From Hymenobacter artigasi (GTDB taxonomy: Bacteria > Bacteroidota > Bacteroidia > Cytophagales > Hymenobacteraceae), in contig NZ_JAAVTK010000007.1 in assembly GCF_012275535.1 (NCBI RefSeq), forward strand, positions 124,001 to 188,000: DNA of 64,000 bases, given 5' to 3'. The translations under genes and the position numbers were made by a program. This document shows positions 1,240-50,100 of this stretch, in pieces; within the stretch, counting starts at the first letter, position 1; the number at the start of each line of letters is the position of its first letter. The notes beneath the pieces were generated by a model. The model was not told where the DNA came from. It saw only the letters and a list, made by a program, of their open reading frames with translations, and did not search any database.

Positions 1240-3885
1240 CTACTTCACCGCATACATCACCGCCAGATAGTACAGGCCGCCCACGCTGGGGCCGCCGAGG
1301 TAGGACACGTAATAATTGTTGAGCAGGTTGCTGGCACCCAGCTTGAAGCGTAGGTTGGGCGCGGGCATGGAATAGCTGAGCTGAGCGTCGAGGGTGTGGT
1401 AGGCCGGCACGGTACCGTTCACCAAAAAGGTCTGGGAGTAGTAGCCCTGCTGCCAGCGGTAGTTGAAGCCGAAACCGAAGTTCTTGTAGGCGTTTTCGTT
1501 GCCCAGACTCAGGTTACAGGCCCAGCGCGGGGTGTTGAAGCTATCTTCGAGGCCGTCGCCGTTTTCGGTGCGGTCGAGGCGGGTGTAGGTGGTATTGGCC
1601 CCCACGAGGTAGCCACTGGGTAACACGTAGCGCAGACCCAGCGAGCCGCCATAGTTATACACCTGGCTCTGCGAGTTGGTCCAGAGGCGGTAGCGGGCCT
1701 GGGTAGGTGCCGGGCCGGTAAGGTTCGTGTTATTTAGGGCCGTGGCGATGGCGTTAAGGCCGGCATCGGCCGGCAGGGGTGCGCCGCCGCCGGAAGCTAC
1801 CGGCACGTAGGCCTCCACCTGCGCAATGAAGTCGCGGTAGGAATTATAGTAAAAATCGACATCGGCCAGCAGCCGGCCGCCCGGCCCGAAAGTGGCTTTA
1901 TAGCCGGCTTCCAGTGAGCGGATGTGCTCGGGCCTGAGGTAGGTGTAAGGATTCTTCACCAGCAAGCCTTGGTTGGCGGCAATGGCTTGGGCGCGCGTCT
2001 GGCCCTGCGTGCCGTTGATGCCCGCCGTCACGGCCGCGTTGAAGCGGTCGATGCTGCTGCGCAGGTAGCTGTTCTCAAACACGCCATCCGACATCACCCG
2101 CAGCCCGCCAATGCGCTTCACCTGCCCGCTGTTCACGTTCGAGAAGCCCTCAAACAGGCTCGGGAAGCGGTAGCCGCTCTGGTAGCTGAGGCGGAAGTTC
2201 TGGCGCGGCGTGGGCGATAGTACGGCCGTGAAGCGCGGGTTGAATTTCAGGTCGAAATAGTCGTTTTTATCGGCCCGCAGCGTGGCCGTGAGGCGCAGCT
2301 TCTCGGCGAAGAACCGACCGCCGGCCTGCACAAAACCACCCGTTTTGGCGTAGGTCAGGTTGTCATTGAGCGGGTCTTTGCCGGGGTTGGGGTTGATAAA
2401 ATAGTTGCCGTCGGGCACCACGATGTAGGTGCGGTGGTCGGCCCCGGCCAGCAGGTCGAGGGTGGCGGGCAGGTGCGCGCCGCCGCGCCGCAGGGCCTCG
2501 GCCAGGTTGGCCTGGGCCTCGGCGTGCAGCAGGCTGGCCCGCACGCGCAGGGCCGCGCCCACGTCCCAGTTGTTCACGTCCTGCAACTGGCTGAGGCGCT
2601 GGTTGAATGCCGCAGTGCCGGGCTGAAGGCGGCCGGCATCGGCGGCGGCGCGGGCACTGGCCAGGGCCTGGGGCACTGGCTGGCCGCTGGCCGTGGCCGC
2701 GTTCCAGGCCGTGGCGAAGTCGCCGTACCAGGCATTATCCGGCTTGTAGCTGCGGTCGAGGTTCTCGCCCATCGAGCGCAGGTTGTAGCTGCGGCCGGTA
2801 TTTTCCCGGGTGAAGTAAGCGCGGGCCTGCACCACGGGCGTGGTCAGGCTGAGGGCGTGCTGCTGCAGGCGGTAGTCCTGCAGGCGGAAGCGGTTGGAGC
2901 GCTGATACACATTGTCGAAACCGGCCACGCGGTACGTGTAGGACAGCTCCGTGCCGGGCCGGAAGCGGTAGTGCAGCGCCGCGTCGGCCTTCAGGGTCCG
3001 GAGGTTGTAATCGACCAAGTCCCGCTCGTCGTAGCCGGTGCGGGCCACCGAGTAGCTCTTGCCCCCCAGCGTGAGGTTGCGGCGGTCCGACGACTCGTTG
3101 CCGTAGTGGTTCACCTGGTCCTGGGCCGGGTTGCTGGCCCCAAATAGGCCGGTGGTGGCGTTGCCGTTGGGGTTGATGTCGGTCTGGTCGTTGGCCACCC
3201 AGTCGTAGCCGCGCAGAAAGGTGCCGTTCACCTTGAGCGCCAGCTTATCGGCCACCAGCACCCTGGCGTAGCGCAGGCTGGTTTCGGAGAAGATTTTGGC
3301 CCCGCTATACGGGTCGCCGACGTGGTTGACGCCGGTTTTCTGCTGCACGCTCAGGCCCTCGAAGCTGAAGGGGTTTTTCGTCCGGAAGTTGGCCAAGCCG
3401 TTGATGGCGTTCAGCCCGTAGAGGGCAGCGGCCGTGCCGGGCACAATTTCCACCGACATGATATCCAAATCGCTCGGCCCCAGGATATTCCCAATCGGCC
3501 CGCCGATGTGGGGGGCTTGGTTGTCCACGCCATCCACGAGCTGGGCAAAGCGCACGTTGGTGGTGTTGGTGAAGCCCCGGGCATTTAGCACCTTGAAAGC
3601 CAGGCTGGGCGTAAGCACCTGCACACCTTTGAGGTGCTCAATAGCATCGAAAAACGACGGGGCGGGCGTGAGCCGCAGCGCCCGCGCGTTGAGCTTTTCC
3701 ACCGTCACCGACGACTGCAAAAAGCTCTCCTCGACTTTGGAAGCAGACACCACTACTTCCTCCAAATCGACTTTCTGGTGGGTCGTATCGGCTGGAGCTG
3801 CCTGCTGGCCTTGCGCGGCAAATACGGATAGCCAGGCCGCTGCAAGCAGCACCAGGTGGGTGCCACGGAGTAAGAAGGGGAGCAT
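1240..3885 (-). CDS. TonB-dependent outer-membrane receptor, probably for molybdate or a related oxyanion
   Basis: The start is set at the ATG at 3885 because it begins a clean signal peptide (MLPFLLRGTHLVLLAAAW, then AAQG). The open frame extends upstream but would read through the operator. The mature protein begins with a TonB-box-like stretch (VDLEEVVVSASK), followed by a plug domain (about residues 55-180, with GPSDLDIMSVEIVPG and AALYGLNAINGLANF) and a long beta-barrel ending in an aromatic-rich C-terminus. About 881 residues is normal for this class. Upstream and in the same orientation lies a ModE-like regulator, and a Mo-box-like palindrome separates the two. The substrate assignment rests on this regulatory context, not on the receptor sequence. 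No ABC transporter for molybdate is visible nearby. Confidence 0.85.
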   Translation of the reverse strand: MLPFLLRGTHLVLLAAAWLSVFAAQGQQAAPADTTHQKVDLEEVVVSASKVEESFLQSSVTVEKLNARALRLTPAPSFFDAIEHLKGVQVLTPSLAFKVLNARGFTNTTNVRFAQLVDGVDNQAPHIGGPIGNILGPSDLDIMSVEIVPGTAAALYGLNAINGLANFRTKNPFSFEGLSVQQKTGVNHVGDPYSGAKIFSETSLRYARVLVADKLALKVNGTFLRGYDWVANDQTDINPNGNATTGLFGASNPAQDQVNHYGNESSDRRNLTLGGKSYSVARTGYDERDLVDYNLRTLKADAALHYRFRPGTELSYTYRVAGFDNVYQRSNRFRLQDYRLQQHALSLTTPVVQARAYFTRENTGRSYNLRSMGENLDRSYKPDNAWYGDFATAWNAATASGQPVPQALASARAAADAGRLQPGTAAFNQRLSQLQDVNNWDVGAALRVRASLLHAEAQANLAEALRRGGAHLPATLDLLAGADHRTYIVVPDGNYFINPNPGKDPLNDNLTYAKTGGFVQAGGRFFAEKLRLTATLRADKNDYFDLKFNPRFTAVLSPTPRQNFRLSYQSGYRFPSLFEGFSNVNSGQVKRIGGLRVMSDGVFENSYLRSSIDRFNAAVTAGINGTQGQTRAQAIAANQGLLVKNPYTYLRPEHIRSLEAGYKATFGPGGRLLADVDFYYNSYRDFIAQVEAYVPVASGGGAPLPADAGLNAIATALNNTNLTGPAPTQARYRLWTNSQSQVYNYGGSLGLRYVLPSGYLVGANTTYTRLDRTENGDGLEDSFNTPRWACNLSLGNENAYKNFGFGFNYRWQQGYYSQTFLVNGTVPAYHTLDAQLSYSMPAPNLRFKLGASNLLNNYYVSYLGGPSVGGLYYLAVMYAVK

Positions 3886-3894
3886 AAAAACAGT

Positions 3895-3918
3895 CGTTAT
3901 ATCCGTAAAGATATAACG
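3895..3918 (-). promoter_or_regulatory. Mo-box-like ModE operator
   Basis: This is a perfect palindrome: CGTTATATC, six bases (CGTAAA), then GATATAACG. It has the architecture and sequence of described ModE boxes (CGnTATAT-type half-sites with a short spacer). It lies between the stop of the ModE-like gene and the receptor ATG, ending 10 bases before that ATG. On the minus strand it contains TATCTTTA, close to the Bacteroidota -7 box TAnnTTTG, so bound protein would cover the promoter. Repression when molybdate is plentiful is inferred. Confidence 0.75.
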
Positions 3919-3934
3919 GATTGCTGCCTGCCAA

Positions 3935-4294
3935 CTACTCGTGCAGTCTGTTTGTTTCGCGGGCCATGAATTCCTGAAAACGGGCTTGCAAGGCCTGGAA
4001 CGCCACAATGGCAGCCTGGCCGGCCTCCGTTACAACTGCCCCGCCGCCTTTGGAGCCGCCGGTTTGGGTGCTCACCAGCGGGGTGGCCGCCTGCGCGTTC
4101 ATGGAGCTCACCAAATCCCAAGCGCGCTTGTAGGACATGCCCATGGCCTGCGCGGCTTTCGAGATGGAGCCCAGCGCGGCAATGTGCTCCAGCAGCTCCA
4201 GCCGGCCGATGCCGAGGAACCGGCCGTCGTCGGTTTCGAGCCAGAGGCGGCCGTTGAGGCGATAGGAGTGGGTGGGCCGCAGCAGGGATTTCAT
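3935..4294 (-). CDS. ModE-type winged-helix regulator, DNA-binding domain only
   Basis: The 119-residue protein contains the ModE N-terminal helix-turn-helix (about residues 25-100): GRLELLEHIAALGSISKAA, then AMGMSYKRAWDLVSSMN, then a GGSKGGGAVVTEAG wing. The C-terminal molybdate-binding MOP domains of E. coli ModE are absent, and the protein simply ends at residue 119. The ATG at 4294 is preferred over one 23 codons upstream because the upstream segment is Cys/Pro-rich and unlike the family. The gene sits directly before the TonB receptor with a Mo-box between them, so it is most likely that receptor's regulator. How it senses metal without MOP domains is unclear. Confidence 0.85.
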   Translation of the reverse strand: MKSLLRPTHSYRLNGRLWLETDDGRFLGIGRLELLEHIAALGSISKAAQAMGMSYKRAWDLVSSMNAQAATPLVSTQTGGSKGGGAVVTEAGQAAIVAFQALQARFQEFMARETNRLHE

Positions 4295-4549
4295 CCGGCA
4301 ATGATACACGCAACGGCCCTTTGCCGGGGCCATACTACAGCAGTTGCTGCATCTGCCGGGCATTTTCCACCCCCACAGCCCCGATGCCGTTGCTACCTTT
4401 CGGCTATGCCCGTCAGCCCCGGCTTATAGCGTAGTGTTGCCGCTTATGAAAAAAGCGGCACAACTGGTTACCGACCGATGTGCTGACGGCGCTGGTCCGA
4501 ACAAGGCAGCATTTTCCTGCTTAATGGTTTCCGATTAACCCTATTTCCA

Positions 4550-6439: not shown

Positions 6440-6510
6440 ACAACTCAACGCCCGCTGTTTGAATGGGTGCGTAATAGCACTAATCAAGCCAAGTTGAGAA
6501 GTGCCACAAC

Positions 6511-6664
6511 AGCCGCGTAGCGGCGACAGGTTTGTAGCAGGGCGGTGGACAAAGGAGGAAAAGCCGTGTAGCGGCGACAGAAAAAACGGGTGAATCTGTC
6601 ACCGCTACGCGGCTTTTTTCGGTTTACCCCTCTTTTTCTACAAACCTGTCGCCGCGCTGCGGCT
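6511..6664. repeat. Nested inverted repeat with inner terminator-like hairpin
   Basis: The outer arms 6511-6537 and 6638-6664 are complementary with a few mismatches (AGCCGCG...GTTTGTAG). An inner copy of the same motif forms a hairpin (6561-6580 with 6596-6615) followed by TTTTTT, so it can end transcription on the + strand. The element fills most of the gap between the convergent dehydrogenase and membrane-protein genes. Confidence 0.75.
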
Positions 6665-6690
6665 ATTCTGCAACTTGGGTTAAGTAAGCC

Positions 6691-10332: not shown

Positions 10333-10364
10333 AAGGTGTTGATATGTAGAAGTTGGTGGCGTCC

Positions 10365-10501
10365 GGTCTGACCGCCCTAGGCGGTCTGACCGGTTGTCGT
10401 TGTTTACCGGAACGTGCTCGCTTCAACCGGTCTGACCGGTTGTCGTTGTTTACCGTAACGTGCTTGCTTCAACCGGTCAGACCGCCTAGGGCGGTCAGAC
10501 C
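10365..10501. repeat. CCTAGG-centred inverted repeat, copy 1
   Basis: The 32-base arms (10365-10396 and 10470-10501) are complementary and contain GACCGCCCTAGGCGGTC, itself nearly palindromic. Between them a unit of about 50 bases, starting AACCGGTCTGACCGGTTGTC, is repeated. A second copy of the same family is at 22955-23064. It fills the gap between GH3 and the oxidoreductase gene. Confidence 0.85.
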
Positions 10502-10514
10502 AGGGCGGTGGTGG

Positions 10515-22899: not shown

Positions 22900-22954
22900 A
22901 AGTCCGGTATTCCGGTATCTAAAATGCTGGAAAAGTCGGCTGTAAGTCGTTGCA

Positions 22955-23064
22955 CCGGTCCGACCGCCCTAGGCGGTCTGACCGGTTGTCGCGAGGACGG
23001 CGCCAGTGCTTATTGGGCCGATGCCAACGACAACCGGTCAGACCGCCTAGGGCGGTCAGACCGG
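22955..23064. repeat. CCTAGG-centred inverted repeat, copy 2
   Basis: The arms 22955-22991 and 23028-23064 share their core (GACCGCCCTAGGCGGTCTGA) with the element at 10365-10501. The loops differ. It lies between the convergent LacI gene and the large glycosidase gene, where it may act as a transcript end. Confidence 0.85.
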
Positions 23065-23109
23065 CGCAACGCGACTTCCTAAACCGCTTCATCAGATGGC
23101 ATGACGTGC

Positions 23110-32080: not shown

Positions 32081-32210
32081 GGGCTCATCAGAGTAGAATG
32101 GGGGAAGCAATAGTGCCGGCCATCCCCGCCGCGCCCGCCGCCTACACCTCCGCCCTACAAGGGCTGTTCCCGCCCCGTCCTGCCCCCCCCCGCCCGCTGC
32201 GCCCGCCGTT

Positions 32211-32228
32211 GAAGAAACGGGAGCTTCT
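32211..32228 (+). promoter_or_regulatory. Inter-cassette element, copy 1
   Basis: GAAGAAACGGGAGCTTCT follows a C/G-rich tract (CGCCCGCTGCGCCCGCCG). It is the first of seven copies in the array; here the downstream CGTAACTTAG is replaced by CGGGTAAAAG and the next ATG is about 75 bases away. Confidence 0.7.
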
Positions 32229-32301
32229 CGGGTAAAAGCCGTAAACTTTCGGCTTATCTTCGTGGTATTACCGCTTAGAGCATTCAGCAACTTCTCGTTT
32301 T

Positions 32302-32478
32302 ATGGGAATCACCGATAATAAACCTGTCCGCCCTTTACCAACCGCCAGCACCGTTAAGATGACCAAGGGGGCGCGGCTGGCCCAGGCCCGCGAATATGCC
32401 AAGCAATTCGTGTTCGATACGCTCTCGGCGGAAGACCTGAAAAAGATGCGCCGCAACGCCTACGCTTATGCCATTTAA
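32302..32478 (+). CDS. Small basic protein, candidate antitoxin of an unknown pair
   Basis: The 58-residue ORF runs from MGITDNKPVRPL to MRRNAYAYAI. It is not recognised. It has a Lys/Arg-rich helical part (KMTKGARLAQAREYAKQF). Its last 11 bases overlap the start of the next gene (ATGCCATTTAA), an arrangement typical of translationally coupled toxin-antitoxin pairs. The gene was found by reading the sequence; its assignment as antitoxin is inferred from size, order and location among VapBC-like modules. Confidence 0.6.
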   Translation: MGITDNKPVRPLPTASTVKMTKGARLAQAREYAKQFVFDTLSAEDLKKMRRNAYAYAI

Positions 32479-33043
32479 GCGCACGCTGGGCGAAGGCTAT
32501 CCGTTTACATACCGCAAAGGGCCGTCTCACAAGGACGGCCCTTTGGTTTGCGTGCATCACTACACGTTCCGGACGCGCAAAAACCGTCGCTATTTAGACG
32601 ATGCTGAGGAGTATCAGCACCACACGTACGTGCTCAAATATTACCCGCTGTCGCACAAAAGCTCGCCCAATAAATATCGCGTGCTTACTAACGACGGCGA
32701 CGCTTTCCGGATTCTAACCACCTGCACGCAGGTCTTTCTCGATATCTGCCGCCGCGACCCGTTGGCATCGGCTGGTTTCGTGGGCGAAGCACTGGTAGGG
32801 GAGGGTGTGGCCAATACCAAGCGGTTTCGGGTGTACCTGCAAACCGTTTCCACCTTCATCGGCCCGAACCGCTTTATTCATCACCCCATGCCGGCCATCA
32901 GCGCCTATTTTCTGGAGTGCCGCGCCAACACAGAGCCGGGCTTGAAGGAAACAGTGGAGCAAATGTTCCGTGAGTTGTACATCGTGCCGCAAGCCCTGGA
33001 AGCAGAAAAGCCTTCACCGTTGGACAGCGGTAATGGCGGCTGA
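32468..33043 (+). CDS. Unknown protein, candidate toxin partner of the preceding small gene
   Basis: The 191-residue protein starts inside the end of the 58-residue gene. No known domain was recognised. Visible traits are an aromatic/His-rich N-terminal half (CVHHYTFRTRKNRRYLDDAEEY, HHTYVLKYYPLSHKSSPNKY), a RVLTNDGDAFRILTTC segment and a later FIGPNRFIHHPMPA stretch. It may be a new toxin or effector type. It has no transmembrane segment. Codon use is similar to that of the host. Confidence 0.6.
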   Translation: MPFKRTLGEGYPFTYRKGPSHKDGPLVCVHHYTFRTRKNRRYLDDAEEYQHHTYVLKYYPLSHKSSPNKYRVLTNDGDAFRILTTCTQVFLDICRRDPLASAGFVGEALVGEGVANTKRFRVYLQTVSTFIGPNRFIHHPMPAISAYFLECRANTEPGLKETVEQMFRELYIVPQALEAEKPSPLDSGNGG

Positions 33044-33106
33044 GTAGCCCCCGCTACGCCCGCCGCTGCCGGACCTAGCGCTTCTGCCCCCGCCGCCCCG
33101 CCCGCT

Positions 33107-33168
33107 GAAGAAACAGGAGACTCTGCGTAACTACCTCGAACTGATTTCCAGCACGCAGCGTATCTTAG
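33107..33168 (+). promoter_or_regulatory. Inter-cassette element, copy 2, with TATCTTAG box
   Basis: GAAGAAACAGGAGACTCTGC then GTAAC and, after about 30 bases, TATCTTAG (33161-33168) ending five bases before the next ATG. CCTAGCGCTTCTGCCCCC and a CCGCC tract precede it. The box resembles the Bacteroidota -7 element. Confidence 0.65.
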
Positions 33169-33173
33169 TAACG

Positions 33174-33353
33174 ATGAAAACGACTGCTCAATTTCTGCCA
33201 GATGCTTCGGCCCCTGATGTAGTGCTTAGCGAAGCACGCAAGCGGGCGGCATTCAAAGCCCTGCGCCAGCGCTATGAAGCGCATGAAAAGGCAACAGGGC
33301 TCAAGTCCAGCGAGGAGTTCACCAAACTGCAAGAAGCTGGCAAGCGTGCTTGA
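33174..33353 (+). CDS. Small helical protein, candidate antitoxin (copy 1)
   Basis: The 59-residue protein runs from MKTTAQFLPDASAPDVVL to KLQEAGKRA. It is predicted helical and basic (SEARKRAAFKALRQRYEAHEKA). It is not recognised as any named family. Its end overlaps the next gene, which starts with a GTG at 33346. Its protein sequence is repeated exactly at 36466-36645. Position, size and overlap suggest an antitoxin or regulatory partner. Confidence 0.6.
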   Translation: MKTTAQFLPDASAPDVVLSEARKRAAFKALRQRYEAHEKATGLKSSEEFTKLQEAGKRA

Positions 33354-33768
33354 AGACCCGCATTGTCTGCGGTGCGAGTGTGACCGACACGGTGGCTATG
33401 TCGAATACGGCATCCGACACTTGCACCCCGATTGGGACATCCTGACCCAAACCTATGAAATCCGCTCGATGACCGACGATGGGCGATTCATTTACCACAG
33501 CGACTTTCAGTTATTCCCGCTCGGTAGCAGCATCCCGGCCGATTTCAGCCGCTACCCGCGAGAAGCAAAAGCAGCCCTGTGGCAAGCCATTTTCCGGGTG
33601 AAGCGCTACTACTTGACCACGTTCGAGCCCGATATCGTGCAGCACCTCATCAAGCAGCCGTTTTCAGTGCCGCAGCGGTTCGCCTTCTACCGCCAGCACC
33701 TGAGCCTGTCCACCTACGACATCACCCACGACCGGTACAGCATCTGGTACGTGCTCCAAACAGAGTAA
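33346..33768 (+). CDS. Unknown protein, candidate toxin (copy 1)
   Basis: The 140-residue protein is read from the GTG at 33346, which overlaps the TGA of the small partner (GTGCTTGA). An in-frame ATG at 33274 would lie inside the small gene and gives a non-conserved basic leader. The protein begins VLEDPHCLRCECDRHGGYVEY and has a CxxCxC motif near its N-terminus, a dense aromatic core (TQTYEIRSMTDDGRFIYHSD) and an ending DITHDRYSIWYVLQTE. No family is recognised; a metal-binding N-terminus is possible. The same gene recurs at 36638 with a handful of substitutions. Confidence 0.6.
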   Translation: MLEDPHCLRCECDRHGGYVEYGIRHLHPDWDILTQTYEIRSMTDDGRFIYHSDFQLFPLGSSIPADFSRYPREAKAALWQAIFRVKRYYLTTFEPDIVQHLIKQPFSVPQRFAFYRQHLSLSTYDITHDRYSIWYVLQTE

Positions 33769-33831
33769 CCTCGTTGCCGCTGCCGCACCTAGCGCTTCTG
33801 CCCCCGCCTCCCCGCCCGCTGCCCCGCCGCT

Positions 33832-33860
33832 GAAGAAACGGGAGCTTCTGTGTAACTTAG
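33832..33860 (+). promoter_or_regulatory. Inter-cassette element, copy 3, with TAACTTAG box
   Basis: GAAGAAACGGGAGCTTCTG, then TG and TAACTTAG (33853-33860), ending four bases before the ATG of the first vapB-like gene. GAAG and CTTC can pair as a small stem, which could be an autoregulatory operator. No ribosome binding site fits in the remaining four bases. Confidence 0.7.
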
Positions 33861-33864
33861 ACCT

Positions 33865-34146
33865 ATGAAAATTGCCCTCGAATTAGAGTTTCCCGACGAG
33901 CAAGCGGCCGCGTTTATGCAGCGGCTGCAAAGCTTGCCAGGCCTCACGGCTCGCTTCTTGCGTCTGCGCCCTGAGCCGCAGGTCAGCCCTAGCGCGGCTG
34001 AAGTAACCGATGAATTAACCGAAGCCGAGCAAAAGGCCTTGCTGTATAAGGTATTTGGTAGCTGGCAATCGGATGTGAGTGGGGATGAAATGGTGCGCCA
34101 GATTTACGCTGACCGCCGCGACGAGCCGCGCGAAGTGAATCTATGA
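33865..34146 (+). CDS. vapB: VapB-like antitoxin, module 1
   Basis: The 93-residue protein begins MKIALELEFPDEQAAAFMQR and ends with an acidic/Arg tail (GDEMVRQIYADRRDEPREVNL). The same N-terminal and C-terminal signatures occur in the two later modules. It overlaps the PIN-domain gene by four bases (ATGA), the usual toxin-antitoxin arrangement. DNA-binding by the N-terminal part and toxin neutralisation by the tail are inferred from the class. The family is common in Bacteroidota next to PIN toxins but has no well-known name. Confidence 0.8.
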   Translation: MKIALELEFPDEQAAAFMQRLQSLPGLTARFLRLRPEPQVSPSAAEVTDELTEAEQKALLYKVFGSWQSDVSGDEMVRQIYADRRDEPREVNL

Positions 34147-34586
34147 GCCGCTTTTTACTTGACACGAACATCTGCATTCACTTCATCAACGGGCAGTTCG
34201 ACCTTGCGGCTAAGATTGATAAAATAGGGTTGACCCGTTGCTTTATTAGCAGCATTACCATTGCGGAATTGCTCTACGGCATTGCGAATAGCGCCCCAAC
34301 CCGCCAGCCAAGGAACAGGCAGAATCTGGCTGAGCTACAGCAACTTTTCAGCGGGCGTATCCTGACCTTCGAAAGTGCCTTGGAAACCTACGCCGTACAG
34401 AAAGCACACCTGAAGACTATAGGCCGGCTGCAAGGAGATTTCGACATGCTTATTGGGAGCACTGCACTCACGCACGACCTCACGCTTGTCACGCGCAACA
34501 CCCGTCATTTTGCCGAAATGCAAGGCATTGTGCTGGAGGATTGGGTCACCGAATACCTGGCAGGACAAATAAGTCTCAGCCAGTAG
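34143..34586 (+). CDS. vapC: VapC-like PIN-domain toxin, module 1
   Basis: The 147-residue protein carries the four PIN-domain sites: D7 in LLDTNIC, E42 in TIAELLYG, D101 in GDFDMLIG and the C-terminal TRNT near residue 119. PIN toxins cleave RNA (often initiator tRNA or rRNA) using Mg2+ at these acidic residues. It is translationally coupled to the upstream antitoxin by an ATGA overlap. All catalytic residues are present, so it looks functional. Confidence 0.92.
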   Translation: MSRFLLDTNICIHFINGQFDLAAKIDKIGLTRCFISSITIAELLYGIANSAPTRQPRNRQNLAELQQLFSGRILTFESALETYAVQKAHLKTIGRLQGDFDMLIGSTALTHDLTLVTRNTRHFAEMQGIVLEDWVTEYLAGQISLSQ

Positions 34587-34685
34587 CCCCGCCTCCCCGC
34601 CCGCTACCTGCGCCGCTGGCACGATACCACCGCTGCGCCCGCCGCAGCCGCCCCTACTGCTTCTGCCCCCACCGCCCCCGCCGCT

Positions 34686-34714
34686 GAAGAAACTCAAGCT
34701 TCTGCGTAACTTAG
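34686..34714 (+). promoter_or_regulatory. Inter-cassette element, copy 4, with TAACTTAG box
   Basis: GAAGAAACTCAAGCTTCTGC, then G and TAACTTAG (34707-34714), again four bases before the ATG. A TACTGCTTCTGCCCCC variant and CCGCC tract precede it. Confidence 0.7.
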
Positions 34715-34718
34715 TAGC

Positions 34719-35000
34719 ATGAGAGTTGCCCTAGAACTAGAGTTTCCCGATGAGAAAGCTGCGCTGTTCGTGCGGCTGCTGCAAAGCCTGCCGCCGGGCC
34801 TGACGGCCCGCTTTTCGCGCCCGAAACCCGGCCAATCGACAGATTTTGCCGAAGCCGAATCAACGGAGCTGACTGCCGCCGAGGAAAAGCAACTGATGCA
34901 CGAGCTATTTGGCGCGTGGAAATCCGATGTGAGCGGGGAAGAAATGGTGCGTGAGATTTATGACGCCCGGCAAAGCGACCACCGCGACGTGGAGCTATGA
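34719..35000 (+). CDS. vapB: VapB-like antitoxin, module 2
   Basis: The 93-residue protein begins MRVALELEFPDEKAALFVRL and ends SGEEMVREIYDARQSDHRDV then EL. It is a divergent paralogue of the module 1 antitoxin, strongest in the first 15 residues and the EEMV.EIY tail. It overlaps the following PIN gene by ATGA. Confidence 0.8.
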   Translation: MRVALELEFPDEKAALFVRLLQSLPPGLTARFSRPKPGQSTDFAEAESTELTAAEEKQLMHELFGAWKSDVSGEEMVREIYDARQSDHRDVEL

Positions 35001-35467
35001 GCCGCTATTTGCTGGATACCAACATCTGCGTTCATTACCTGAAAGCTGAGCACGACCTGGAAAACAAGGTGCTCGCGGTGGGTTTGCACAACTGCTTTAT
35101 TTCCGAATTGACCATTGCCGAAATGCTCTACGGCCTGGCCAAGTGCGACCCCACGTATGCCGTACAGCAGCGGCAACACATCGGCCAGCTGCGCCGCCTG
35201 TTCAATACGCGCGTGCTGCCGATTGCCGATGCCTTCGATTTGTACGGCCCGGAAAAGGTGAAACTGCTGGATAAAGTGAAGCGGGGCGAAATCGGCAAGT
35301 TTCCCGGGGAGTTCGATGTGCTCATCGGCTGCACCGCGCTGGCCCACAACCTGATTTTAGTTACGCGCAACACGCGGGACTTTGCGCCGCTTACTGGGTT
35401 GAGTTTAGAGGATTGGATAAATGATTCTCCGCTACCACCAGCCGCACCCCTACGGCAGTACCGTTAA
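34997..35467 (+). CDS. vapC: VapC-like PIN-domain toxin, module 2
   Basis: The 156-residue protein has D7 in LLDTNIC, E42 in TIAEMLYG, D107 in GEFDVLIG and the TRNT motif near residue 125. It carries a short insertion (DKVKRGEIGKFP) before the third acidic site compared with modules 1 and 3. Catalytic residues are complete. Confidence 0.92.
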   Translation: MSRYLLDTNICVHYLKAEHDLENKVLAVGLHNCFISELTIAEMLYGLAKCDPTYAVQQRQHIGQLRRLFNTRVLPIADAFDLYGPEKVKLLDKVKRGEIGKFPGEFDVLIGCTALAHNLILVTRNTRDFAPLTGLSLEDWINDSPLPPAAPLRQYR

Positions 35468-35569
35468 TAATCCCCCCGCTCGGTGCCCCCGCCGCTGAAG
35501 CACCTAGCGCTTCTGCCCCCGCCGCCCCGCCCGCTGCCCCCGCTGCCCCCGCCGCTAGCCCGATACCCC

Positions 35570-35587
35570 AGCTTCTGCGTAACTTAG
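35570..35587 (+). promoter_or_regulatory. Inter-cassette element, copy 5, with TAACTTAG box
   Basis: AGCTTCTGCGTAACTTAG, four bases before the next ATG. The GAAGAAACGGG half is replaced by CGATACCCC, so the right half alone is conserved here. CCTAGCGCTTCTGCCCCC occurs about 60 bases upstream. Confidence 0.7.
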
Positions 35588-35591
35588 TCAC

Positions 35592-35882
35592 ATGAGAGTC
35601 GCCCTTGAATTAGAGTTTCCGGATGAGCAGGCCGCTTCCGTCATGCGGAAGTTGCAGGACTTGCCGGAAATGACTATCCGCTTTTTGAAAACCGATGCAT
35701 TAGCGCCGCAGAGTCCGTTGGCTGTACAACATTTCATTGGGAAAGCCCCCTTGTCGGAACAAGAGCAAAACGAGCTACTCGATAAGGTATTTGGCTCCTG
35801 GCAACAGGAGGAAGGGGAGGAAAATTTGATGAGCCAGATTTACGGCTCCCGGCGCGATACCCCGCGGGAAGTAAATCTATGA
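35592..35882 (+). CDS. vapB: VapB-like antitoxin, module 3
   Basis: The 96-residue protein begins MRVALELEFPDEQAASVMRK and ends SQIYGSRRDTPREVNL, matching module 1 at both ends. The central part (about residues 30-60) is unrelated in detail to the other two. It overlaps the PIN gene by ATGA. Confidence 0.8.
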   Translation: MRVALELEFPDEQAASVMRKLQDLPEMTIRFLKTDALAPQSPLAVQHFIGKAPLSEQEQNELLDKVFGSWQQEEGEENLMSQIYGSRRDTPREVNL

Positions 35883-36325
35883 CGGCCTATCTGCTTGACA
35901 CCAACATCTGCGTTTACCTCATCAATGGCAAATACGAGTTGGCTTCCCGCTTAAAGCGCGCCAAGCTCCCCAATTGCTTTCTGAGCGAGTTGACCGTGGC
36001 TGAGCTGCTTTATGGGGTAGCCAACAGCGCACCCACGCACCAGTTGGCTAACCGCCAGCGCCTGGATGATTTCCTCTCCTTGTTTGAGGAGCGGATTCTG
36101 CCCATTTCTGATTCGCTGGAATCCTATGCCCAACAGAAAGCGCATCTAAAACGCCTGGGGCGCTTGCAAGGCGAGTTCGATATGTTGATTGGCAGCGTCG
36201 CGGTAGCCCATCGTCTGACGCTGGTCACGCACAACACTGCCCACTTTGCAAGTATGGCCGGTATCGTATTGGAAGATTGGGTACAGGAATACGAGGACGA
36301 GCAGGAATCGGCCAACGCCAAGTAG
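35879..36325 (+). CDS. vapC: VapC-like PIN-domain toxin, module 3
   Basis: The 148-residue protein has D7 in LLDTNIC, E42 in TVAELLYG, GEFDMLIG near residue 100 and THNT in place of TRNT. The two asparagine/threonine positions are kept. It is closest to the module 1 toxin (ANSAPTHQLANRQ versus ANSAPTRQPRNRQ). Confidence 0.92.
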   Translation: MTAYLLDTNICVYLINGKYELASRLKRAKLPNCFLSELTVAELLYGVANSAPTHQLANRQRLDDFLSLFEERILPISDSLESYAQQKAHLKRLGRLQGEFDMLIGSVAVAHRLTLVTHNTAHFASMAGIVLEDWVQEYEDEQESANAK

Positions 36326-36399
36326 CCCCCGCTGCGCCCTCGCAGCCGCCCCTAGCGCTTCTACCCCAACCGCCGCCCCGCCCGCTGCCCCCGCCGCTG

Positions 36400-36460
36400 C
36401 AGAAACGGGAGACTCTGCGTAACTACCTCGAACTGATTTCCAACACGCAGTGTATCTTAG
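36400..36460 (+). promoter_or_regulatory. Inter-cassette element, copy 6, with TATCTTAG box
   Basis: CAGAAACGGGAGACTCTGCG then TAAC and, about 30 bases later, TATCTTAG (36453-36460) ending five bases before the ATG, as in copy 2. Confidence 0.65.
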
Positions 36461-36465
36461 TAACG

Positions 36466-36645
36466 ATGAAAACGACTGCTCAATTTCTGCCAGATGCTTC
36501 GGCCCCTGATGTAGTGCTTAGCGAAGCACGCAAGCGGGCGGCATTCAAAGCCCTGCGCCAGCGCTATGAAGCGCATGAAAAGGCAACAGGCCTCAAGTCC
36601 AGCGAGGAGTTCACCAAACTGCAAGAAGCTGGCAAGCGTGCTTGA
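36466..36645 (+). CDS. Small helical protein, candidate antitoxin (copy 2)
   Basis: The protein is identical to the one at 33174-33353. Its start is set at the ATG at 36466 by the match to copy 1 and by the TATCTTAG box five bases upstream; a longer open frame from 36277 runs back through repetitive Pro-rich sequence of the inter-cassette element and is rejected. Confidence 0.6.
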   Translation: MKTTAQFLPDASAPDVVLSEARKRAAFKALRQRYEAHEKATGLKSSEEFTKLQEAGKRA

Positions 36646-37060
36646 AGACCCGCATTGTCTGCGGTGCGAGTGTGACCGACACGGTGGCTATGTCGAATAC
36701 AGCATTCGGCACCTGCATCCCGATTGGGACATCCTGACCCAAACCTATGAAATCCGCTCGATGACCGACGATGGGCGATTCATTTACCACAGCGACTTTC
36801 AGTTATTCCCGCTCGGTAGCAGCATCCCGGCCGATTTCAGCCGCTACCCGCGAGAAGCAAAAGCAGCCCTGTGGCAAGCCATTTTCCGGGTGAAGCGCTA
36901 CTACTTGACCACGTTCGAGCCCGATATCGTGCAGCACCTCATCAAGCAGCCGTTTTCAGTGCCGCAGCGGTTCACCTTCTACTGCCAGCACCTGAGCCTT
37001 CCCACCTACGACATCACCCACGACCGGTACAACATCTGGTACGTGCTCCAAACAGGGTAA
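36638..37060 (+). CDS. Unknown protein, candidate toxin (copy 2)
   Basis: The 140-residue protein starts at the overlapping GTG at 36638. It differs from copy 1 at a few residues (for example EYS for EYG near the N-terminus, FTFYCQ for FAFYRQ, PTYD for STYD, and the final TG for TE). The CxxCxC motif is kept. Retention of an intact frame in both copies argues that both are in use or that the duplication is recent. Confidence 0.6.
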   Translation: MLEDPHCLRCECDRHGGYVEYSIRHLHPDWDILTQTYEIRSMTDDGRFIYHSDFQLFPLGSSIPADFSRYPREAKAALWQAIFRVKRYYLTTFEPDIVQHLIKQPFSVPQRFTFYCQHLSLPTYDITHDRYNIWYVLQTG

Positions 37061-37200
37061 CCTCGTTGCCGCTGCCGCACCTAGCGCTTCTGCCCCCTGC
37101 CGCCCCGCCCGCTGCCCCCGCCGCTGGCACGATACTACAGCTTCTCTCCAACGCAACGCCCGGCAGCCCCCAACGTCCCCCGCCCGCTGCCCCCGCCGCG

Positions 37201-37228
37201 GAAGAAACGGGAGCTTCTGTGTAGCTTG
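37201..37228 (+). promoter_or_regulatory. Inter-cassette element, copy 7
   Basis: GAAGAAACGGGAGCTTCTGT then GTAGCTTG. The next gene begins about 100 bases further on, so the fixed spacing to an ATG is lost here. It marks the junction between the GC-rich array and the AT-rich operon that follows. Confidence 0.65.
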
Positions 37229-39328: not shown

Positions 39329-41938
<2,610 letters not shown>

Positions 41939-41965
41939 TTCGTTGGAGTTGGTTTTGTAAATGGG

Positions 41966-42001
41966 AAAGCCCCGTCAGCGTTGTGCTGGCGGGGCTTTTT
42001 A
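41966..42001 (+). terminator. clpB rho-independent terminator
   Basis: The hairpin AAAGCCCCGTCAGCG / CTGGCGGGGCTTT is followed by T residues, 27 bases after the clpB stop. Two further copies follow the broken clpB ends. Confidence 0.93.
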
Positions 42002-42015
42002 TTGTTTAGTGATTC

Positions 42016-42206
42016 TAACTCTACTTTGGCAGGTTATCGGTTGGGTGTAGGGGCGGGGTCGTACCCGGTAGGGCTTGCCCCCGCCCGTTGTTCGCGCCAT
42101 GCCGACGGATTTCGTTCAACGGTGGGCGGGAACAAGCCTTACCGGGTACGACCCCGCCCCTACATCCTGGAAGCCTCAAGTAGCTCAACCTGCCAAAGTA
42201 GAGTTA
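42016..42206. repeat. Large nested inverted repeat
   Basis: The outer arms TAACTCTACTTTGGCAGGTT (42016-42035) and its complement (42187-42206) enclose inner arms 42047-42077 and 42133-42163 (core GGGGCGGGGTCGTACCCGGT). The last three bases of the right arm are the TAA stop of the next minus-strand gene. Confidence 0.85.
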
Positions 42207-42617
42207 ATTGTTGAAATACTTTCGCTTGAGTCTGCGACGAATTGCATTTGGTAATGTCTTGTTCTTTTCAAAATCATTTACAATTTTAGCTTCTTTGCTT
42301 ACACTAAATCGCACAATCTTTCCAAAACCAATTACGGCCGGTATTCCACCAAAAACAACTACAAAAACACCTGCTGGCACGGTGCCAACCGTGCTAATAG
42401 CAATGCGCGTGAAAATCACGGCGCCTCCAGTCAAAATATAGCCGCCGGTGCGATGGCTTTTAAACAACTTATGAATGGCTTGTACCGTGTCGGATGAAAC
42501 AGCAGGCGAAGTTGTTACAATGGGTGTAGAAGTAAGCGGCTGCGTATTCTGAGCCTGCGCAAAAGCGGAAGTAGAAATACCAAAAAGTAGTGCCGAAACG
42601 AGTAGGTGCTTATGCAT
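42204..42617 (-). CDS. Secreted/membrane small protein of the DTV-A-HK..R.GG family
   Basis: The ATG at 42617 begins a signal peptide (LLVSALLFGISTSAFAQA). The mature part has DTVQAIHKLFKSHRTGGYIL, two hydrophobic stretches and a basic C-terminal helix (LPNAIRRRLKRKYFNN). Related proteins are at 43458 and 51659, with broken ones at 42688 and 44187, which defines a local family. No function is known. The gene is less GC-rich than its surroundings. Its stop codon falls at the edge of the inverted repeat. Confidence 0.75.
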   Translation of the reverse strand: MHKHLLVSALLFGISTSAFAQAQNTQPLTSTPIVTTSPAVSSDTVQAIHKLFKSHRTGGYILTGGAVIFTRIAISTVGTVPAGVFVVVFGGIPAVIGFGKIVRFSVSKEAKIVNDFEKNKTLPNAIRRRLKRKYFNN

Positions 42618-42687
42618 TTCAAGTTTTAATAAAAGGAAGACTAGTTCCTGCAAGCTACAGATTGGTAAGGTAGTGCGGCCTGGCCGA

Positions 42688-42894
42688 CTACGCTGCCCGT
42701 CGCAGTGCGCGCCGCTCCACGCGTTCGCGGTAGTGCCGGGTGCGGTACATTTGGTGCAACACCGCAACGGTTTCAGCGGCAGTGTACTTGGTAGCACTGG
42801 TTTCGGGAGGAGAGGTATGGGATGCAGGAGTAGAGACGGCTTGTCCGCGGACGCAAAGCGAAAGAAACAGCAGGAGGCAGGGGAAGCGTAGCAT
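42688..42894 (-). pseudogene. Internally deleted DTV-family gene, copy 1
   Basis: The 68-residue frame has a signal peptide (RFPCLLLFLSLCVRGQA) and the family motif ETVAVLHQMYRTR, then jumps straight to HYRERVERRAL. That ending resembles the C-terminus of the full-length relative at 51659 (TYREKMERRG), so the middle of the gene appears to have been deleted. It could still be expressed as a tiny secreted protein, but a remnant is likelier. Confidence 0.65.
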
Positions 42895-43085
42895 TGGCGT
42901 TGGGTAGGTGTTTTGAAGGATAAACGGCACTTTGCAAAACGACCAAATCGCTATGTGCTAAACTTGTTTCAGAAGCCAGCTAGTATTAGAAACGCTTATT
43001 GCCTGACCGCGGCACGGCGGCGGTGGGCGTGAGACGAGGGGCAAGCGAGTTTGACTGATTACAGAGCGGGCGGGCCAGCATCCAG

Positions 43086-43342
43086 TTTCGCCAGATTCAG
43101 CAGCGCCTGGCCGAGGCCGGCATCCAGCTCGAAGCCACCAGCGAAGTGCTCGACCACCTGGGCGAAGCCGGTTTCGACCCGCAATTCGGCGCGCGGCCGT
43201 TAAAGCGCGTGCTCCAGCGCGTGATTCTGAACGAGCTGTCGAAAGATATTTTGTCTGGACGTGTTTCGAAGGATGCCGTGGTAGAAGCCGTGCTGGAAGA
43301 CGGCGCGGTGAAGTTCGAGAACGTGGAAATGCCGGCGGTGTA
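43086..43342 (+). pseudogene. clpB 3'-end fragment, copy 1
   Basis: It encodes the last about 85 residues of ClpB (from QIQQRLAEAGIQLEAT to ENVEMPAV) with an intact frame and changes such as DHL for DYL. There is no promoter, start or N-terminal part, so it is a duplication remnant. Confidence 0.9.
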
Positions 43343-43366
43343 ATTCCGGTAAGTGTTGTGAATGGG

Positions 43367-43403
43367 AAAGCCCCGTCAGCGTTGTGCTGGCGGGGCTTTT
43401 TTA
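43367..43403 (+). terminator. Copied clpB terminator 1
   Basis: It has the same hairpin and T-run as at 41966-42001. It now lies between the clpB fragment and the convergent gene at 43458. Confidence 0.9.
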
Positions 43404-43457
43404 TGGGTGAGATTTTTCTGCTTGCTAATTAGTCATTCGCTACTGCCAATCTGAAAA

Positions 43458-43913
43458 TTATTTAAGCGGGAGAAGACGTGCTGATACTAGTTCTTTTTCA
43501 ATTTTACTGGGTAACACATTGGTTTCTTGATACAACGCAATATTTAATTTCTCGATTTTCCTGGAATGATTTAACAGAGTATTACCACCAACAATCATTA
43601 AGGGTATAGAAATTACAAGTCCTATGCCCAAGCCGCCCGCAAAATTATAAAGACTTCCGTAGCTATTGTAGTTAGAGGGGAATTGAGCAGCAACTATCGG
43701 GGATACCTCCAAAGCCAAGGCACCAAGCCCTAGCAATGTAAAACCGCCCGCGCGGCGGGTGCGGTATATTTTGTGTAGTGCTGCAACCGTGTCGGCTGCT
43801 GTATACTGGGGTATGAGAGCTGCGGAGGTATTCATACTTGTCAGAGGATGAAGGGAAGCTTGTCCACAGACAGGAAATGAAAATAGCAGCAGAAAGCAGA
43901 GGACGCGTAGCAT
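43458..43913 (-). CDS. DTV-family small membrane protein
   Basis: The 151-residue protein has a signal peptide (RVLCFLLLFSFPVCGQA), the family motif DTVAALHKIYRTRRAGGFTL, two hydrophobic segments (GLGALALEVSPIVA and LGIGLVISIPLMIVGG) and a C-terminal helix that ends LVSARLLPLK. It is the intact relative of the fragments at 42688 and 44187, which share its N-terminal style. Function is unknown. Confidence 0.75.
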   Translation of the reverse strand: MLRVLCFLLLFSFPVCGQASLHPLTSMNTSAALIPQYTAADTVAALHKIYRTRRAGGFTLLGLGALALEVSPIVAAQFPSNYNSYGSLYNFAGGLGIGLVISIPLMIVGGNTLLNHSRKIEKLNIALYQETNVLPSKIEKELVSARLLPLK

Positions 43914-44091
43914 AGAACTCGGGTAAGTACTTCGAAATATACATTCTGGTTCTCGGACCGAGCAAGTTGTGGTGCGCTTAAATCGTAGCCGTATTGCTTG
44001 TAGAACCCCCCGTCGCCGCCGCGCCGGCCCCGGCGGCGGGGTGGGGGAGAAACCAGACGCCAGCGGCCGGCGTTATCTTTACTTCAACCAA

Positions 44092-44232
44092 ATGCCTCTG
44101 GCTATGTCCATTACCCTTGAGTTGAGCGACGAAGTGACGCAGCAGGCCAAGCAATATGCCCGGCAGCAGGGACGCAGCCTGGCCGACTACGCTGCCCGCT
44201 GCAGTGCGCACCGCTCCACGCGCTCGCGGTAG
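44092..44232 (+). pseudogene. Truncated antitoxin-like gene at a duplication junction
   Basis: MSITLELSDEVTQQAKQYAR followed by QQGRSLADYAA resembles the N-terminus of ribbon-helix-helix-type antitoxins. After LADYAA the frame enters the repeat copy and ends in CSAHRSTRSR. The last bases of the same gene, coding LADYAAR, also remain at 42679, so the junction is shared by both repeat copies. A TATCTTTA box stands upstream. Confidence 0.55.
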
Positions 44233-44393
44233 TGCCGGGTGCGGTACATTTGGTGCAACACCGCAACGGTTTCAGCGGCAGTGTACTTGGTCGCACTGGT
44301 TTCGGGAAGAGAGGTATGGGATGCAGGAGTAGAGACGGCTTGTCCGCGGACGCAAAGCGAAAGAAACAGCAGGAGGCAGGGGAAGCGTAGCAT
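44187..44393 (-). pseudogene. Internally deleted DTV-family gene, copy 2
   Basis: It is nearly identical to 42688-42894, with the same signal peptide, motif and HYRERVER junction, so the deletion happened before the duplication. Confidence 0.65.
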
Positions 44394-44580
44394 TGGCGTT
44401 GGGTAGGTGTTTTGAAGGATAAACGGCACTTTGCAAAACGACCAAATCGCTATGTGCTAAACTTGTTTCAGAAGCCAGCTAGTATTAGAAACGCCTATCG
44501 CCTGACCGCGGCACGGCGGCGGTGGGCGTGAGACGAGGGGCAAGCGAGTTTGACTGATTACGGAGCAGGCGGGCCAGCAT

Positions 44581-44841
44581 CCAGTTCCGCCAGATTCAAC
44601 AGCGCCTGGCCGAGGCCGGCATCCAGCTCGAAGCCACCCCCGAAGTGCTCGACCACCTGGGCGAAGCCGGCTTCGACCCGTAATTCGGTGCCCGCCCGCT
44701 TAAGCGCGTGCTCCAGCGCGTGATTCTGAACGAGCTGTCAAAGATATCCTCTCGGGCCGCGTGTCTAAGGATGCCGTAGTAGAAGCCGTGCTGGAAGACG
44801 GCGCGGTGAAGTTCGAGAACGTGGAGATGCCGGCGGTGTAA
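44581..44841 (+). pseudogene. clpB 3'-end fragment, copy 2
   Basis: It covers the same clpB segment as copy 1 but has a nonsense change (CCGCAATTC to CCGTAATTC) and a one-base deletion in the CTGTCGAAGG region. It cannot encode the ClpB tail. Confidence 0.92.
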
Positions 44842-44868
44842 TTCGTTGGAGTTGGTTTTATGAATGGG

Positions 44869-44903
44869 AAAGCCCCGTCAGCGTTGTGCTGGCGGGGCTT
44901 TTT
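44869..44903 (+). terminator. Copied clpB terminator 2
   Basis: This is the third occurrence of the AAAGCCCCGTCAGCG hairpin with T-run. Confidence 0.9.
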
Positions 44904-47158: not shown

Positions 47159-50100
47159 ATGCAGCATAATTTACCTTTTACCAATGCGTCGCAATCCCTG
47201 CTCGTGGGGAGCCGTCGGCCAGTGGCTGGCCGGAGCTGGCGGCCCATGGTGGCCGCGGCCCTGGGCTTGTTGTCCATCTCGGTGGGCGCTTCGGCCCAGA
47301 ACCGGGCTTTCCCCCTGCCGCAGGCGGCTGAGAAAGTAGCCCGGCCGCTATCGGCGGCCCCGGTCGCCGTGCAACCCGTGCGGGCGGTAGCGGCCCGGCA
47401 GGTGCTGTCCGCTATCAGCTCGACGGCGGCGGGCGGCAACTGGAGCGCCCCGGCCACCTGGGTGGGCGGCGTGGTGCCCACAGCCGCCGACGACGTAACC
47501 ATCGTGGCCGGAGCCACGGTGACGCTGGACGTAGCGGCGGCGGCGGCTTCGCTCAACATCGCGGCCACGGGCTCGCTGCTGACCTCGGCCACTACAGTCT
47601 ACCAGCTGCAAGTAGCCGGCGACGTGACCAACAACGGCGTGCTCGACCTGAGCAACAGCGCCACCATCGGCTCGGACCTGCGCTTTACGGGCGCGGGCAA
47701 CGCGGCCTTCACCGGCACGGGCACCACCGATTTGCAGACCGTGTCCCTCGCCAAATCGGTGCGAGCCGACATTGTGGAGATGAACCTGCCGACGCTGTCG
47801 GTGAAGGGCAGCACCACCTCGGGCGACGGCTTCCTGTCGACGCGCATCACCACCAACACCGTGGATGACATGACCGGCACCCTGAAGATTTCGGGTACGG
47901 CCACCATCAGCAACAAGGTGTTTAGCAACGCGGCTTCTTACTTTATTCCGGCCACTGGCGGCTTCTGGCTGAACAACGCCAACTTTACGGTAGCCAGCCA
48001 GACGGGCTCGCCAACGGTGAACGGCTCGCTGCGCATCTCGACTGGCACGTACAACGTGGGCAGTTCGATTGGCAACTCCATTCTGTTCGGTTCGGCGGCG
48101 GTCTACACCCAGGAGGGCGGCACGCTGAACACGGTAGGCCGTTTTGGCTCCTTTACCAGCGCTACGTCGGCGGCGGCCATGACTTTCACCCTGAACGGCG
48201 GTACCCTCAACGTGAGCACCGTGGGCAACGCGTCGGGCACGCCCTCGTTCGGCGTGAACGGCACCAACGTTGTTTCGGGCGGCACCATCAATCTGGTGCA
48301 GCGCAGCACTGCGGCCACCCCGCTCGACTACTACGTGGCGGGCACCTATACCTACACCGGTGGCACCGTGAACGTGGGCACGGCCGCGACGGCCACCAAC
48401 TTCGACTTCCGCATTCGCGGGACGTTTCCGAACCTGACCATCGACAACACGACCAACCCCAAGAGCGCCCTGTTGCAGGGCCAGACCAACGTGTATGGCA
48501 CTACGCTGACTACGCCCGGTGCCACGCTCAACCTGAACGGGCTCCTGTTGTTGCAGTTTGGCGCAGCCGTCACCAACAACGGTACGCTAACCGGTACTAC
48601 GGCGAGCAGCACGGTGTACTTCGCAGGCTCCGTGCCCCAGACGATGGGTGGTACGGGTACATTTAGCGTTATCCGCACCATCACCGTCGACAACAGCGGC
48701 GGCGGGGTTACGCTAAGCGTACCCGTGGTGACGACCCGCGTCAACCTCTTCACCGGTAACCTCAACGGCGGCAGCAACCTGACCATAGGCGACGCGACGG
48801 CTGCGTTTTTCGTTATCCAGATTGGGGTAACGAGCAACCCCAACACCAGCGGTTCGATTACTTCGGCCCCGACCTTTAACATTGGCAGCGGCGCATTGCA
48901 GCTGATTTATGCGCCGGAGCTGACGGCCCGCACTACCGGGTTTGAGATTCCGGCTACCCGCATTGTGGATGCCGTGAGCATTGCCAATCCGATGGGCGTC
49001 ATTCTGGCGGGCGGCAACCTGCTGGTGAATGCCAGCGGGGTATCGACGGGTTCGCTGTTGCTGAGCAGCGGCATCCTGACCACTTCGGCTACCAATAAGC
49101 TGACGCTGGGCACGGCCGCCGCAACGCTGCCCACCGGCTCGGCTACTTCGTATGTGAAAGGCCTCCTGGGCATCACCGTGAACAGTGCTACGGCCGTGGC
49201 CCGCACGTTTGCCGTGGGCGATGCCGCCGGCTGGCGGCCGGTAGTGGTTTCGGGCATTACCGCCGCCACCGACCAGGTATTTACCGCCACGGTCGTGAGT
49301 GGTGCCACGGGCGGCACCGGCGTTTCGCCGGTTACCAACCTGAACCCCACCCGCTACGTGCGCCTTGAGAACACGGCCAACCTGCCAGCCACGGCCACCG
49401 TGCAGCTGAGCTACGGCGCCGATGACGTGCTGGGCAACACCGCTACGGCGGTGGTGGCCCAGGCCGCTACGGCCACCGGCGCATATGCCTCCATCGGCGG
49501 CGCGGCGGCTACTGTTCCTGCTACGGGCTTGGTTTCGACCACGAGCCTGACGCCCGGCAACGACTTCTTTGTGCTGGCCAATACCGAAGGCGGCACCCTC
49601 AGCACCTCGGTGGCAGCGGTTTGCAGCGGTACCAATTCCGGCACCATCACGCTGGCCAGCAACGTGGGCACAATTGTGAAATACCAGGCCGACAACGGCT
49701 CGGGCTTCGTGGATGTGGCTGGTACCAATACCACCAGCACGCTGGCTTTCAGCAACCTGACGGCTACCACCACGTTCCGCGCCGTTATCCTCACTGCGGA
49801 TAGCCGCACCGTGTTTTCGGCTCCGGTAACGGTGACCGTGAACCCGGCCCCGACGGCTGCGCTGGCGGCTACTTCGGCTACTACGTTCTGCGGCCCGGGC
49901 TCCCTCACGCTGGCCGCTACGCCGGTTACGGGTGCTACCTACCAGTACCAGCTCAACGGTGCCAACATTACCGGGGCTACTTCGGCCAGCTACACCGCTA
50001 CGGTTTCGGCCAGCGGCAGCTACACGGTGATTGTGACCAGCGCTGCAGGTTGCACGGCTACCTCGACGCCGGTTGCCGTGACGGTGAACCCGGCCACTAC

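Follow-up and report, generated by a model that had tools for sequence, protein, structure and literature searches.

A putative ModE operator precedes a TonB-dependent receptor gene in Hymenobacter artigasi and links it to a predicted molybdenum regulon

We analysed a 64,000-nt stretch of the Hymenobacter artigasi genome (contig NZ_JAAVTK010000007.1, positions 124,001 to 188,000; hereafter the window), near one end of which two minus-strand genes flank a palindrome. The first gene (3935–4294) encodes a ModE-like regulator of 119 aa that consists of the DNA-binding domain only, assigned from matches to TIGR00637 and to PDB structures. The second (1240–3885) encodes a TonB-dependent outer-membrane receptor of 881 aa, assigned from the Pfam Plug and TonB_dep_Rec_b-barrel domains and from fold matches of its AlphaFold model. 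Read along the minus strand, the ModE-like gene runs from 4294 to 3935 and is followed, after a 49-bp gap, by the receptor ATG at 3885; an alternative upstream ATG would place the start of the ModE-like gene at 4363. The palindrome, CGTTATATC-N6-GATATAACG, occupies positions 3895–3918 (no strand assigned) and is annotated as a putative ModE operator (Mo-box) on the basis of its exact symmetry and its conservation. It is perfect, with 9-nt arms around a 6-nt centre, and its end lies 9 nt from the receptor ATG, which confirms the original prediction of a palindrome between a ModE-like gene and an outer-membrane receptor. The consensus operator of Escherichia coli ModE is ATCGCTATATA-N6-TATATAACGAT (PMC2700814). 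Comparison of this consensus with the sequence found here, CGTTATAT-N8-ATATAACG, revealed the same geometry as in the ModE regulon of E. coli and other Proteobacteria; when the operator is defined as CGnTATAT-N8-ATATAnCG, the site fits the definition, and 15 of its 16 core bases agree with the E. coli consensus. With up to three mismatches allowed, the window holds one match to the box, compared with 0.02 expected from shuffles. In the 5.5-Mb genome, no match with fewer than three mismatches was found apart from 3895–3918, the two matches with three mismatches are no more than the reversed-pattern control yields, and a scan with a sequence profile of the box returned 3895–3918 as the sole site.

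Analysis of the ModE-like protein indicated that it carries the N-terminal winged-helix DNA-binding domain of ModE and stops after this helix-turn-helix domain, without the C-terminal MOP/TOBE region that defines the long, E. coli-type ModE. It matches TIGR00637 with 85.2 bits (E 2.6e-24), below the cut-off of 98.5 bits, and the same model is matched by all 19 relatives. The best solved relatives are PDB 2ijl (E 9e-18), a 135-aa short ModE and the closest solved structure, and E. coli ModE (E 5e-15). Alignment to 2ijl and 1b9m showed that the recognition helix SYKxAWD and the GGxxGGG loop are kept. The TOBE/MOP domain (PF03459) is absent from the H. artigasi genome and from 46 Hymenobacter genomes, in a search that was positive in 12 of 14 control genomes; a separate MOP partner protein is rejected for the same set of genomes. 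The earlier claim that the regulator is a DNA-binding domain alone is thus borne out by its length and by the lack of any TOBE/MOP domain in the genome. How such a protein receives its signal had been called a puzzle, for which the short ModE of Agrobacterium and Sinorhizobium offers a published precedent. Hoffmann reportedly found in 2016 that this form (ModE-S) of Agrobacterium tumefaciens and Sinorhizobium responds to molybdenum cofactor (Moco) status, binds Mo-boxes, controls modABC and consists of the DNA-binding domain only. By this analogy, and because no MOP domain occurs in any Hymenobacter genome tested, the ModE described here probably reads cofactor status as well, with Moco-dependent DNA binding being an inference.

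The receptor meets the definition of a TonB-dependent transporter, an N-terminal plug followed by a C-terminal beta-barrel, with both PF07715 (residues 59–163; 3397–3711, minus strand) and PF00593 (residues 310–854; 1324–2958, minus strand) above the cut-off. Past the signal peptide lies a TonB-box-like stretch, VDLEEVVVSA (3742–3771, minus strand), which was identified by conservation and whose role is inferred; among 32 receptors, V45, A48 and S49 are invariant, and L41, E43, V44 and V46 are nearly so. The AlphaFold model (pLDDT 75) resembles BtuB, Cir and PfeA best, with Z scores of 28–29, and also matches ChuA, OprC, ZnuD and PqqU; Z scores across the whole set are 25–29 at 12–18% identity. 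The substrates of these nearest folds are cobalamin, ferric catecholates, heme, copper, zinc or PQQ. Since they are such a wide mix, no substrate can be called from the fold, and neither the receptor sequence nor its structure has a feature that identifies the substrate. The receptor fails the model of TonB-dependent heme receptors (TIGR01785), scoring 78.9 bits against a cut-off of 316.85. A second receptor family, 43–47% identical to the window receptor and with reading frames of about 960–1050 aa, is widespread in Hymenobacter.

The arrangement was then compared across 73 Hymenobacter genomes. The ModE-like gene is present in 59, and in every one of these a box with zero to three mismatches lies upstream of the receptor ortholog at constant spacing. 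Nine of the 14 genomes without ModE also lack the receptor ortholog; the remaining five retain a receptor (74–76% identical) without any box. In the receptor tree, these five genomes represent two independent losses, one of which has a box-bearing sister (G008). In five Hymenobacter genomes, ModE lies elsewhere or some way off (G032, G008, G054, G021 and G033), and the box remains at the receptor, as it does in five genomes of other families. Arsenicibacter, Spirosoma, Emticicia and Fibrella share the ModE-box-receptor arrangement, with receptor identities of 51–53%. Five genomes retain the receptor in the absence of ModE, and both are missing from nine Hymenobacter genomes that carry MOT1 and MoaA, so that the receptor is dispensable for some molybdenum users. 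Some copies of the genes discussed here are broken, namely a split receptor gene in G039 (L132) and one with an in-frame TAG in G064 (L137), for which assembly errors are not excluded.

Boxes of the same kind were found before recognised molybdenum genes in relatives. A weight matrix trained on receptor boxes alone was run on the 4–5-kb modA loci of the 20 ModA-bearing genomes, and in all 20 the best-scoring site falls at the modA promoter, 113–240 bp ahead of the ModA domain; most of the scores greatly exceed those of shuffles. A genome-wide profile search of 119 genomes, whose training set included the modA boxes, revealed extra sites before FdhD-FdhA, between FdhD and a PruR remnant/MOT1, and before an operon for a YagTSR-type molybdenum hydroxylase. 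Second boxes precede the YagTSR operon in five inspected Hymenobacter loci and, in relatives, also precede moaA. No profile site occurs in Hymenobacter genomes without ModE except in G037. Weaker matches appear in other families of the order; the three inspected (G039, G076 and G101) have no molybdenum gene nearby and look like chance. In several ModA-bearing relatives, a MoeB-like gene and moaA come after the receptor gene. A search for the box before modABC or Moco genes had been suggested. It was negative in H. artigasi itself, whose single site leaves its Moco cluster and MOT1 without a box in the own-genome scans, and positive in relatives, where modA (20/20), moaA, fdhD and YagTSR are preceded by one. 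Because the box is shared with modA, moaA, fdhD and the hydroxylase operon and is lost with ModE, we interpret it as the operator of a molybdenum regulon and the receptor as a part of molybdenum homeostasis; both assignments are predictions from sequence without binding data, and the transport of a molybdenum species is inferred from the regulon and the gene neighbourhood. The broader claim of ModE-controlled molybdenum uptake is likewise supported by the boxes before molybdenum genes and by the joint loss of box and ModE, with the substrate and the sign of regulation remaining inferences. A permease gene comes after ModE and a Mo-box in Emticicia, Arcicella and Flectobacillus (L231:6426-7181, L242:6465-7202 and L247:6511-7251); the one tested belongs to the TauE/SafE family, and these permeases are candidates for oxyanion transport within the molybdenum regulon.

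The genome of H. artigasi holds a Moco cluster that encodes an FdhA-like enzyme, FdhD, MoaC, MobA, MoaE, MoaA and a MOT1-type molybdate permease, and ModA was not found in it. The inner-membrane step is therefore likely to be carried out by the MOT1-type importer beside the Moco genes. Across the genus, MOT1 occurs in 52 genomes and ModA in 20; the two never occur together, and both are missing from one incomplete genome. ModE and the receptor occur alongside MOT1 as well as alongside ModA, and this exchange of importers under a constant receptor fits a role for the receptor one step earlier. Within the stretch that holds the Moco cluster, on contig C3 of this genome, a cobalamin riboswitch (Rfam RF00174, 78 bits; 47873-48099, L126:15873-16099) adjoins MOT1; an Rfam scan of the window returned no riboswitch.

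Computation establishes the operator together with its ties to ModE and molybdenum genes, and it places the receptor in this regulon. The mechanism that we consider likely is that a receptor under the control of a ModE operator imports a molybdenum species during shortage; repression, signal and substrate are all inferred. When molybdenum is sufficient, most likely read as Moco, the short ModE would bind the box and shut the receptor promoter; when molybdenum is short, ModE would release the box and the receptor would be made. Energy from TonB could then draw a scarce molybdenum species (free molybdate or molybdate bound to a chelator) into the periplasm, and a MOT1-type permease (as in H. artigasi) or ModABC (as in relatives) would pass molybdenum on from there to Moco enzymes. 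Against this reading, it has no experimental support, some molybdenum users do without the receptor, and a PruR-like neighbour of the receptor in 14 genomes is suggestive of a pterin and not of a metal.

It remains possible, though in our judgement unlikely, that the receptor imports something else needed together with Moco enzymes, such as a ferric siderophore, heme or another metal, and is merely controlled by ModE. The receptor does show weak sequence similarity to heme/hemoglobin and Cir-type receptors, and Azotobacter turns on three TonB siderophore receptors in the absence of molybdenum and vanadium (PMC9542535). However, no other target of the box, modA included, is as constant as the receptor, whose gene lies among Moco genes in several relatives.

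A small secreted single-domain PruR-like protein is encoded between the box and the receptor in 14 Hymenobacter genomes, and in some other Cytophagales the PruR-like gene directly follows or faces ModE. The protein matches PF00174, and in our reading the PruR-like proteins have no cysteine conserved family-wide that would resemble the molybdenum ligand of sulfite oxidases. Foldseek ranked the PruR pterin-binding proteins best for its structural model (E 5.5e-9 to 8e-8, Z 15–17), ahead of sulfite oxidases (Z up to 18). The PruR-like gene is fragmented in G028 (L131), where an assembly error is not excluded. Since this protein lies between box and receptor in those 14 genomes, a pterin or cofactor substrate stays possible: the receptor may import pterin, molybdopterin or finished Moco rather than molybdate, with the PruR-like protein as periplasmic carrier and a Moco-sensing ModE providing direct feedback. 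Cofactor import has parallels in BtuB, which imports B12, and PqqU, which imports PQQ, and both are among the structural neighbours of the receptor. We nevertheless regard this alternative as distinctly improbable, as the PruR-like gene is missing from the H. artigasi genome and most others, receptor-bearing genomes have MoaA, the H. artigasi genome has its own Moco synthesis cluster, and ModA has the same box in 20 genomes, which fits a shortage of molybdate. Only a low probability is likewise given to the fuller analogy with B12 and PQQ, by which the receptor, with the PruR-like protein where present, would serve TonB-driven salvage of pterin or Moco under repression by a ModE that senses the same cofactor.

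A possible Bacteroidota −7 element, TATCTTTA (consensus TAnnTTTG), lies inside the box at 3906–3913 on the minus strand, without a mapped start site. Of 60 receptor boxes, 52 contain an element that retains five or six of the six fixed bases, whereas shuffles give about 10; these elements fall in two registers, and the palindrome itself accounts for part of them. TTG at the distance of the −33 element showed no enrichment among receptor boxes. The overlap of the box with a −7 element, as originally proposed, thus has only partial support: it is recovered in most boxes but lacks the accompanying −33 signal. Repression of the receptor by ModE is likely because the −7-like element sits within the box, and it is not demonstrated, given the missing −33 enrichment. 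There is only a small chance, in our estimate, that ModE controls the receptor through tungstate sensing, or that it activates rather than represses: the ligand cannot be read from sequence, and ModE activates some promoters, for example that of E. coli moaA (PMC2408646), yet a box close to the start codon of the first gene that holds a −7-like element is in the position of a repressor site.

The arms of the box are conserved base by base, with paired changes between them no commoner than in shuffles, and conservation without covariation is as expected of a DNA site. An intrinsic terminator of modE or another RNA hairpin, suggested by a scan match in H. artigasi in which a stem and a T-run resemble a weak terminator, is rejected as hardly tenable, since the T-run is not retained in other genomes, the arms do not covary beyond shuffles, the box goes with the receptor when modE lies elsewhere, and the same site is found before modA and other genes. 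In the absence of binding data, an operator is the better reading of the palindrome.

The system resembles the ModE regulon of E. coli and other Proteobacteria in that modA is a target in relatives and the DNA-binding domain is homologous, and it differs in lacking a MOP domain, in having an outer-membrane receptor as its main target and in the absence of ModA from the H. artigasi genome. It shares the reduction to a DNA-binding domain with ModE-S of A. tumefaciens and Sinorhizobium; unlike ModE-S, which reportedly controls modABC and for which a Moco response is said to have been demonstrated, the ModE of the window has its box before a receptor. Among the receptors of similar fold, OprC (copper), ZnuD (zinc), BtuB (cobalamin) and PqqU (PQQ) are 11–17% identical in sequence and share the energy source by inference, and molybdenum is outside their known substrates, unlike the substrate proposed for the window receptor. 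The single-domain ModE of Desulfovibrio also lacks MOP, and how it senses is unclear; its predicted operator, CGGTCACG-N14-CGTGACCG, and its molybdate ABC targets (PMC545781) differ from those described here. In the literature searched, a single outer-membrane step for molybdate is described, the T6SS-ModA-IcmP route of Pseudomonas aeruginosa, which uses secreted ModA and an outer-membrane metalloproteinase (PMC8602904); that route has no TonB receptor and is not described as ModE controlled. In Azotobacter vinelandii, VnfA1 activates TonB siderophore receptors when molybdenum and vanadium are lacking (PMC9542535), so that receptors of the same type are induced by shortage, but not under a ModE box. 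ModE regulons are known, as are short ModE proteins and TonB receptors for metals other than iron. The literature searched, which left out most subscription journals, yielded no TonB receptor under ModE control and none that is the constant target of a ModE box.

As the most constant ModE target of the genus, the receptor would make the outer membrane a controlled step for these bacteria. Molybdate is generally thought to cross this membrane passively, and models of its uptake begin at ModA. The placement of the receptor in the regulon points instead to a dedicated outer-membrane door for molybdenum, usually assumed to be unnecessary, and suggests that environmental molybdenum may reach Hymenobacter in a form that requires active import. 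A new metal or cofactor may thereby join the substrates of TonB-dependent receptors, and a system with one target and one regulator is suited to working out how a MOP-less ModE senses its signal.

Several other repeated elements were observed in the window. Three repeat units, about 1.4–1.5 kb apart and up to 98% identical in parts, lie at 41674–44903, each preceding an identical 49-nt terminator-like sequence. Seven copies of a GC-rich repeat of 49–56 nt are spaced by about 700–900 bp at 32188–37226 and are probably Ala/Pro-rich coding linkers of a repeated gene family. The intergenic region 6500–6670 contains imperfect inverted repeats of GCCGCGTAGCGGCGACAGGTTTGTAG, perhaps a REP-like element or a double terminator. 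A palindromic element, GGTCTGACCGCCCTAGGCGGTCTGACCGG, is present in at least two copies (10363–10506 and 22948–23071), inverted and 12 kb apart.
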